Of a DNA stretch of 64,000 nucleotides, positions 45,928-48,978 are shown one piece after another. Made by a program: the position numbers and the translations under genes. The notes under the pieces are model-generated. The model saw only the letters and a list, made by a program, of their open reading frames with translations. It searched no databases and was not told where the DNA came from. Position 1 is the stretch's first letter, and each line of letters starts with the position of its first letter. This stretch comes from an uncultured Pseudomonadota bacterium. GTDB lineage: Bacteria; Pseudomonadota; Gammaproteobacteria; Ga0077536. The DNA lies in NCBI GenBank assembly GCA_903825645.1, contig CAIKBL010000080.1:1-64000 (forward strand), written 5' to 3'.

Positions 45928-47070
45928 TCAAAGTCCCATCTGCCTGACCGCGAGATCGCGCATAATCTCCGCCGAACCGCCGCCGGTGGCCATGACCTTC
46001 GTCTCTCGATAGATACGCTCGACCGAATTTCCGCGTAGGTAGCCTACGCCGCCGAGGATCTGCATCGCTTCATTAGCGACAAATTCGAGGTTCGTTGAAC
46101 AGAAAAATTTAGCTTTACTGATTTCGGCAACCGGCATATCCCCTTCATTGACACACCAACAAATCTGATTGATGAGGGCCTCCATGGCGTCGATTCTCGC
46201 CGACATATCGGCGATTTTGTGCCGGATAACCTGATGCTTTATCAACGGTTTATTGAATGTGGATCGTTGCTGTGCGTAGCCAACACTTTCTTCCAGGCAA
46301 CGTTTTGCCATGCCCAGCATTTGCGCACACATGAACAGACGCTCGTAATTGAAATTATTCATGGTGGCGAGGAATCCGCGATTCTCCTCGCCCATGCGAT
46401 GAGAAGCGGATACACGACATTCGTCGAAATAAAGCGTTGCGGTATCCGATGCCCACCACCCCATTTTTCGCGCAATAGCTGTCCGCGAGAATCCAGGCGT
46501 TCCAGCTTCCACGAAAAAAAGCGAAATCCCCTCGACACCCACCTGCCCGGTTCGAGCTGCCACAACGAAATAAGCCGCATTCATACCGCCGGTGATGAAT
46601 GTCTTGACCCCGTTGATCACGTAGCTATCGCCGTCGCGCCGCGCCCGCGTCTGCATGTTCGCGACGTCTGAGCCACCCGAGGGCTCGGTGATGGCGAGCG
46701 CTCCTCCCTTGAGGCCGGACAAAATCTCCGGGAGCGAGCGAGCCTTGAGCTCCTCCGAGGCCAAGGCGTTCACAAGCCCCACCATGATGCCCCGCGCTCC
46801 GATGCTAGCAACGACCCCGCCTATCCCACTGCGACCGAGCTCCTCTGCCGACCCCGTGCGCATAAAAGCATCGTCGAAACCAAGCCCCCCATAGGACTCA
46901 TCGATGCCGAAACCGAACAACCCGAGCGCGCACGCCCGCGCGTGGACTGCCCACGGGAAAGTGCCTGCTTCGTCCCAAACATCCCCAAACGGTTCAATTT
47001 CTTGTTTGACAAAGCGCGCGATCGTGGCGCGGAATGCCCGACGCTCGTCGTTATCGAAAGGATTTCGCAT
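45928..47070 (-). CDS. Acyl-CoA dehydrogenase (isovaleryl/citronellyl-CoA dehydrogenase type)
   Basis: A 380-residue acyl-CoA dehydrogenase: LAITEPSGGSDVANMQTRA for FAD, GEENRGFLATMNNFNYERLFMCAQ with the Glu used as catalytic base in isovaleryl- and long-chain-type enzymes, QQRSTFNKPLIKHQ, and QILGGVGYLRGNSVERIYRETKVMATGGGSAEIM at the end. The GGGSAEIM tail replaces YEGT and resembles citronellyl-CoA dehydrogenases (AtuD). AGGTGG lies 5 nt before the ATG. It is the last gene of the GST / peroxiredoxin-like / acyl-CoA dehydrogenase cluster (145 bp after the peroxiredoxin gene). Confidence 0.85.
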   Translation of the reverse strand: MRNPFDNDERRAFRATIARFVKQEIEPFGDVWDEAGTFPWAVHARACALGLFGFGIDESYGGLGFDDAFMRTGSAEELGRSGIGGVVASIGARGIMVGLVNALASEELKARSLPEILSGLKGGALAITEPSGGSDVANMQTRARRDGDSYVINGVKTFITGGMNAAYFVVAARTGQVGVEGISLFFVEAGTPGFSRTAIARKMGWWASDTATLYFDECRVSASHRMGEENRGFLATMNNFNYERLFMCAQMLGMAKRCLEESVGYAQQRSTFNKPLIKHQVIRHKIADMSARIDAMEALINQICWCVNEGDMPVAEISKAKFFCSTNLEFVANEAMQILGGVGYLRGNSVERIYRETKVMATGGGSAEIMRDLAVRQMGL

Positions 47071-47215: not shown

Positions 47216-47866
47216 TCACATAGTCAGTTTCTTCACATCTTCGAGCGTTTTCTCAGGATCAGGGCGCACGGTGTAGTCGGGATCGACATCAACGTGCCGC
47301 ACGATACCATCCTGACCTACCACGATCCGTGCGGGCATGGGTAAAGTCCAGCTCTCATCACCGTTGAATGCGGGAAGGTCGATCCCAAAACTGCGATAGA
47401 TAGTTTGCAGTTCTCCCGTCAGAGCGTAGCGAAGGCCCAGCGCTTGGGCATAGGCGTTGTCCGGATCGCTCAAAATATCAAAGCCAAAATTATGTTTTTC
47501 GGCGATAGAAAGGCCGAATTTTGGCAACTGGGGCGACAGGGCAATCAGGGTCAAGCCCAGTGTCTGCAAACGCTTGGCGATGTCCTGCAAAGCATACAGC
47601 TCTGCAACACAATACGGTCACCAATGCCCGCGGAAAACCGTCAAAACGACACCGCCCTTGGCCAACAGATGGGCCGATGATACGGCCAAGCCCCGCATGT
47701 TGGTCAGTTCAAAAGGCGGCAGTGCGTCCCCTGTCTTGATCACCTTGTCGAGAATTCCAGACGCACGCAGATCCGCAGTGGCCCGGTTCATGGTGGCGAG
47801 AGTATCCGGCGGGATCTGTTTTACAGCACCCGCTCGGATTTCGTTCAGCTTTTCACACAGGTTCAT
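47216..47866 (-). CDS. Peroxiredoxin-like (AhpC/TSA fold) protein with in-frame TGA at the active-site Cys, candidate selenoprotein
   Basis: Read through one TGA (47618-47620, codon 83) the frame gives 216 residues: a helical N-terminus, GDALPPFELTNMRG, VVLTVFRGHW-TGA-PYCVAELYALQDIA, LIALSPQLPKFGLSIAEKH, and DPDYTVRPDPEKTLEDVKKL. Peroxiredoxin-like relatives read RG-x-W-C-P-Y-C here, so TGA sits on the catalytic Cys and yields a U-x-x-C redox motif with Cys86. The whole remainder is intact and matches the family on both sides. AAGGAGAAAGC precedes the ATG. A stem-loop 10 nt after the TGA could be the bacterial SECIS. It lies between a GST and an acyl-CoA dehydrogenase gene. The alternative is a simple nonsense mutation. 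Confidence 0.75.
47585..47607 (-). promoter_or_regulatory. Candidate bacterial SECIS stem-loop
   Basis: On the coding strand, 10 nt after the TGA, TTGCAGAGC (47607-47599) pairs with GCTTTGCAG (47593-47585) through nine pairs, two of them G-U, around the loop UGUAU with G at loop position 2. The UGA-to-loop distance is 19 nt. Size, distance and a G among the first loop bases agree with the published bacterial SECIS pattern as I recall it. Confidence 0.6.
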
Positions 47867-47937: not shown

Positions 47938-48636
47938 TTAAACCGGATAACCAAGGGCCGCACCCGCAATACCGCCGAAGGCTTCCAGCATGCTCGCCCG
48001 CCAGACGGCCACAGGATCAGCCGCGTCGAGTAACTTGAAGGAGCTAATGCAACGCGCCCACTGAAAGGCACCAAAAACGATGTAATCCGCGTAGGCCGGT
48101 CGAGCCCCAGCGAGATAGGACTGACTCTGCAGGACCGTACGGACTGGCTCAAGAATTTGGCGGAAAGCAGGCAACTTGGCTTCGCGTCCCTCACTGACCT
48201 GCTCGATCGTCTTACCGAAGACTTTCTCACGACTCGTCCGGAAATAGTCCTGATCCTGGACACGGATATGCGCGTATATATCAATCAGCACGAGCGCTGC
48301 CAATGCCGGGTGTAGCACCTTGTCCGCCCAGGCATTAACGAATCGAGTGGTTGCCATTCCGGTGGCACCGCCAAACAAGGAAGGCCTTTCTGGGTAGCGG
48401 GTTTCTAGGTATTGGGCAATTGCCCATGAATCGAACACGGTTTCTTCCGCATCCACGATCACCGGCACGCGACCTTGGCCGGAGAAGGCCAGCGCCTCGC
48501 GTTCCGTGAACCGCCAGGGGACCGCATCAAACTCCAATTCCTTGTGGAGAATAGCCAATTTTGTGCGCCAACAGAACGGACTGAACCGGCGGGCCGGATC
48601 TGCACCGGCAAGGTCATAGAGCTTAATGGCTGTCAT
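47938..48636 (-). CDS. Glutathione S-transferase family protein
   Basis: A 232-residue GST: a thioredoxin-like N-domain (IKLYDLAGADPARRFSPFCWRTKLAILHKELEF in pieces, with SPFCWR at the glutathione site, GRVPVIVD with the cis-Pro, and EETVFDSWAIAQYLE for gamma-Glu binding) and a helical C-domain ending near FGGIAGAALGYPV. It resembles the beta-etherase / LigE-like or Ure2p-like groups that act on ethers or isomerise ring products. AGGAG lies 10 nt before ATG 48636. It is the first gene of the cluster with the peroxiredoxin-like gene 71 bp downstream. Confidence 0.85.
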   Translation of the reverse strand: MTAIKLYDLAGADPARRFSPFCWRTKLAILHKELEFDAVPWRFTEREALAFSGQGRVPVIVDAEETVFDSWAIAQYLETRYPERPSLFGGATGMATTRFVNAWADKVLHPALAALVLIDIYAHIRVQDQDYFRTSREKVFGKTIEQVSEGREAKLPAFRQILEPVRTVLQSQSYLAGARPAYADYIVFGAFQWARCISSFKLLDAADPVAVWRASMLEAFGGIAGAALGYPV

Positions 48637-48978
48637 ACCTAGTGTCTCCTTTGTATTCGTTACGTCCGGCCCTGACGTGGGTGTCCAGCCGGCGCACGTG
48701 CCTGCGGCCATCTTAACTACCCAGACAAGATTCCCCTATGGGGTGAACCGCCTCCCGCCTAGGACCGTTAGCGTCATCGCTTTCAGCCTGGAAACGCCTT
48801 TAAGGCGATTGGGGCGCCGCCACGTTTGGCATCCCGCACGCGGAATAAGGTCTCGAGTTCTCGACCACGCCCCTTAGGCCCTGAGGGGCTTACTGTCGGC
48901 TTAAAGTACATTCATTACCGTTGATTGGTGGCGACCGAACGACCCTCCGCTCGGCACCGGACGGCCGGGCCCATAAGA
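48637..48978. other. Intergenic stretch
   Basis: No gene recognised between the GST start and the lipoprotein stop, both on the minus strand. Confidence 0.4.

Follow-up and report, generated by a model that had tools for sequence, protein, structure and literature searches.

A probable SECIS element inside a peroxiredoxin-like gene with a UxxC motif in an uncultured gammaproteobacterium

We found that a hairpin directly following an in-frame UGA codon in a 64,000-nt stretch of gammaproteobacterial DNA (the window, i.e., the whole stretch analyzed) is very likely a bona fide bacterial SECIS element, which would place selenocysteine (Sec) as the first residue of the UxxC motif of a peroxiredoxin (Prx)-like selenoprotein. 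This reading is based on the conserved hairpin, constraint at the codon level, coding constraint that continues past the UGA, the exchange of Sec and Cys among homologues, and the presence of the Sec machinery. It adds a well-supported case to a mechanism already known, and the surprise is low to moderate.

The gene and its predicted product

Standard ORF calling breaks the gene at the TGA into ORFs of 82 and 124 amino acids. Translation of the TGA as Sec (U) corrects this annotation to a single gene with the following features:

47216..47866, minus strand: predicted Prx-like selenoprotein gene with an ATG start, encoding 216 amino acids including Sec83 (FRGHWUPYC)
47618..47620, minus strand: in-frame UGA, putatively read as Sec at residue 83; TGA in 27/27 copies of the order, TGC or TGT in 39 Cys homologues, aligned with an invariant Cys
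47218-47216, minus strand: TGA stop codon terminating the gene

The ATG at 47866 is preceded by AAGGAG, and the protein read with Sec at 47620-47618 contains ...VFRGHW-U-PYCVAELYALQD..., with U-P-Y-C at the place where the Cys homologues have C-P-Y-C. The 216-aa protein scores well above the cut-offs of both the AhpC-TSA domain (Pfam PF00578; 74.1 bits, cut-off 26) and the Redoxin profile (62.6 bits, cut-off 26.6). Its AlphaFold2 model, built with 19 homologues as input, reaches a pLDDT of 95 and a pTM of 0.91, and the structures nearest to the predicted fold are Bcp/PrxQ-type peroxiredoxins. In this model residue 83 immediately precedes the long helix 84-102, which is the usual site of the redox residue in the peroxiredoxin fold. 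The same-strand neighbors of the gene encode an acyl-CoA dehydrogenase (45928-47070, minus) and a beta-etherase-like glutathione S-transferase (47938-48711, minus).

Prx-like UxxC selenoproteins are known from the Sargasso Sea and GOS surveys (PMC1088965, PMC2398784). The protein described here shares with this group (PF00578; also Table 1 of PMC13188914) the AhpC/TSA fold, the UxxC motif and the CxxC Cys homologues, but is distinguished by its RGHWUPYC motif and an N-terminal helical extension. The selenoprotein of the cd02970 "peroxiredoxin-like family" is given with UxxS, not UxxC (PMC13188914), and we treat the kinship with cd02970 PRX_like2, hinted at by an RGxWCPYC motif, as a lead only. 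Weak sequence similarity was also found to the SelL-related redox proteins (NF040769), which carry UxxU as opposed to the one Sec encoded here. Membership in this family was rejected, as the score of 23.8 bits falls far under the curated cut-off of 120 bits.

The hairpin and the bacterial SECIS model

The hairpin and its parts are located as follows:

47585..47607, minus strand: predicted SECIS hairpin of 9 bp with a 5-nt loop, UGUAU; the inner 7 bp (47605-47599 with 47593-47587) are kept in all TGA-bearing relatives
47594..47598, minus strand: apical loop UGUAU with G at position 2, then U; the loop G stands at position 2 in 26/27 copies and at position 1 in one
47581..47611, minus strand: hairpin bounds including three lower pairs, UGU/ACA (47611-47609 with 47583-47581), which are separated from the stem by one G-G mismatch and present only in some relatives

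The original prediction, made from the letters of the sequence, placed at 47585-47607 a stem-loop of nine pairs, two of them G-U, with G at position 2 of a UGUAU loop lying 19 nt from the UGA. Both coordinates and description proved exact to the base: 47607-47599 pair consecutively with 47593-47585, and 19 nt separate the UGA (47620-47618) from the loop (47598-47594). RNAfold returns this same structure and no other, as both the MFE and the centroid structure of the 37, 40 and 60 nt after the UGA, with three further pairs beneath it. Its energy amounts to -17.3 kcal/mol for 40 nt (z = -3.2), and for the 37-nt stretch after the UGA the z-score is -4.6, with 0/200 shuffles equally stable.

Bacterial SECIS elements are described by a loop of 3-9 nt, an upper stem of 4-16 bp and a G in the first two loop positions (PMC13188914, Fig. 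2A), together with 16-37 nt from UGA to apical loop and an MFE of at most -7.5 kcal/mol (PMC13188914). The hairpin falls within all four numeric limits of this model (5-nt loop on 9 bp, loop G, 19 nt, -17.3 kcal/mol), and the loop G is within the first two positions in 27/27 copies. It is also placed as a bacterial SECIS would be, i.e., inside the coding sequence and directly after an in-frame UGA aligned with a redox Cys, which bears out the resemblance noted beforehand. Compared with the consensus (PMC13188914), no feature goes beyond the limits of the model and the loop G is likewise followed by U, but in the U-GUA-U loop the bases corresponding to N1 and N2 of the common pattern are not Watson-Crick partners. 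As a control we folded the E. coli fdhF SECIS, which also carries GU in a small apical loop, at 18 nt from the UGA as compared to 19 nt here. The upper stem described here is longer, uninterrupted and different in sequence, and it lacks the bulged U of the fdhF element, a bulge which the general model does not require. An Rfam search of the region gave no family match.

As background, we counted qualifying stems, defined as perfect, at least 9 bp long, with G in loop position 1 or 2 and at an allowed spacing from a TGA. Such stems follow 28 of the 1951 TGA trinucleotides in the window (1.4%), five of them also being this stable. When synonymous codons were redrawn with the protein kept fixed, 0.7% of the versions paired equally well, the mean being 5-6 of the nine pairs. 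Since both the TGA background and a share of the recoded versions match it, the single hairpin on its own is only moderately unusual and not decisive; the comparison of homologues is. As an internal control, the best stem of this type after the gene's own terminal TGA has 4 bp, and the terminators of the homologues show no consistent hairpin.

Conservation of the stem and codon choice

In the order we sampled 36 genomes, all of one family, and found the gene in 24 of them, the source genome included, in 27 copies (two in each of three genomes). All seven inner pairs are complete in every one of the 27 TGA copies (189/189 pairs). The outer two of the nine pairs, along with the three lower ones, are kept in roughly half of the copies. 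Thus, the nine-pair stem as first described is conserved across the clade in its inner 7 bp and small loop with an early G, and the full 9-bp form was rejected as the conserved unit. When one strand is slid by 1-3 bases, pairing drops from 82% to 33-50%.

Four of the seven inner pairs vary (C-G/U-G/U-A, A-U/G-U, G-U/G-C and A-U/G-U). The first of them passes from C-G via U-G to U-A, the latter state being found in two copies (L035 and L046) that belong to separate, well-supported parts of the Sec clade in the protein tree. In both, an Ala-to-Val replacement on one side of the stem is accompanied on the other by a switch of Leu to the rare codons CTA or TTA, which restores the pairing in these two lineages. 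Since the majority of the inner seven either do not vary or vary on a single side, covariation proper rests on this one pair and its two independent double changes.

The Cys homologues serve as a negative control. Two sets (12 + 27) make up 39 such homologues, in which the codon is TGC or TGT and which encode similar peptides, e.g., CPYCNMELQALQ. All seven inner pairs occur in 0/39 of them, most having 2 to 5. Both checks that could have overturned the original prediction came out in its favor: TGA-bearing homologues retain the pairing, and folding yields no rival structure. With the SECIS structure imposed on eight Cys homologues, 44% of cells pair, no more than in shuffles. A covariance model derived from the Sec set gives 60.5 bits in the window against a best of 16 bits in 25 Cys loci, and searching the genome with it retrieved both copies of this gene and, beyond these, a single match that was not significant. 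Owing to this internal negative control with a similar peptide, the 27 copies form a useful natural data set on SECIS constraint.

One alternative, which we judge very improbable, is that conservation of the peptide AELYALQ yields the pairing as a by-product, with no function of the RNA. These residues are indeed strongly conserved, and from codon choice by itself one would expect on average the 5-6 pairs seen in the recoded versions. Yet the synonymous choice is far off expectation: all 27 copies use GCT for Ala codon 9 in the 3' arm, although it makes up 9.9% of the Ala codons in the remainder of these genes, and Glu codon 6 in the 5' arm is GAG in 26/26 sequences with Glu vs 51% elsewhere in the same genes. 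These counts treat related sequences as independent, so their nominal probabilities are too favorable. The Ala of the 5' arm is encoded by GCA or GCG in all copies. Identical synonymous codon pairs make up 77% in the stem vs 37-40% on either side, a comparison that controls for relatedness by using the same sequence pairs. The by-product reading is further contradicted by Cys proteins that have similar peptides, such as ELQALQ, and lack the stem, and by the Leu CTA or TTA codons that met the Ala-to-Val change in the two lineages.

Sec machinery, distribution and other Sec-type genes

The genome encodes all the components expected of a host of SECIS elements: tRNA-Sec (anticodon UCA) adjoins the genes for SelA and SelB, and SelD is encoded elsewhere. 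Of the 23 other genomes that carry the TGA gene, 22 also have SelA; in the remaining one (G035), which is 86% complete and 7% contaminated, it was not detected. Eight of the 12 genomes of the order that lack the gene have SelA. Another genome of the family (G013), 100% complete, has neither SelA nor the selenoprotein gene, and looks like a loss of the whole Sec trait. SelA was found in 0/22 other families sampled in the class, where the homologues carry Cys.

The TGA could also be a nonsense mutation in a pseudogene or a sequencing error, the hairpin arising by chance. The 1.4% background after the TGAs of the window leaves room for such a coincidence, but the reading is hardly credible, in effect being refuted by the conservation of the same TGA in 27 copies from 24 genomes. 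Apart from the TGA the frame is unbroken. Past this codon, codon positions 1 and 2 show 0.22-0.35 differences against 0.64 at position 3, a constraint also seen before it, and the Sec machinery is complete. Equally hard to sustain is a UGA reassigned or generally read through in this organism (e.g., as Trp or Gly), for which no SECIS would be needed: the frame is open under a code with TGA as sense, but the gene itself ends in TGA, as do many homologues, such a code carries the neighboring genes beyond their natural ends, and tRNA-Sec, SelA, SelB and SelD are present.

With the hairpin taken as a SECIS element, SelB carrying Sec-tRNA-Sec (UCA) would bind the upper stem and the apical loop, located 19 nt past the UGA, and deliver Sec to codon 83 in place of termination by release factor 2; in other words, recruitment of SelB by the hairpin would make the UGA mean Sec (cf. 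PMC10778597). The 216-residue product is predicted to be an oxidoreductase of the peroxiredoxin fold whose active site, Sec-Pro-Tyr-Cys (UxxC), sits at the N-terminal end of a helix. This site suggests a selenol attacking a peroxide or disulfide and a resolving Cys86, a Sec83-Cys86 selenenylsulfide being the probable route to their reduction. SelB binding, Sec insertion and enzyme activity are what we infer from sequence and model.

The protein tree groups the Sec genes in a single clade (support 100/99) next to the Cys genes. A single Cys-to-Sec change seems the simplest reading of a tree whose root is not fixed. A Cys version of the gene was not found in the 36 genomes of the order (E 1e-40). 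We tentatively raise the possibility, with more doubt than confidence, that the gene represents a Prx-like UxxC subfamily not separately listed so far, in which Cys gave way to Sec a single time, at the base of one order where no reversion to Cys is found, and codon choice just after the UGA maintains the SECIS in all copies.

The organism appears to use selenoproteins, with three or more kinds of Prx-fold gene coding for Sec. Two further peroxiredoxin-fold genes with an in-frame TGA were detected in the same genome: C13:60965-61330 (L066), with FTGGUTAEC, has the TxxU arrangement of known Sec peroxiredoxins; C44:42090-42500 (L071), with GSYUGCS, resembles the Prx-like proteins containing UGC from the GOS survey (PMC2398784). 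In both genes the UGA is likewise followed by a hairpin with G at loop position 2 and then U (CGUGA at 21 nt in C13, CGUGU at 20 nt in C44). The second copy of the selenoprotein gene in this genome (C87:91908-94371, L060) retains the TGA and the SECIS hairpin intact, but is interrupted after residue 139 by an insert of ~1.8 kb. The insert carries a Gp49/HigB-like gene (PF05973) together with an HTH_37 partner (PF13744), as well as an ORF whose product has an ABC-3C CTD12 domain (PF20279).
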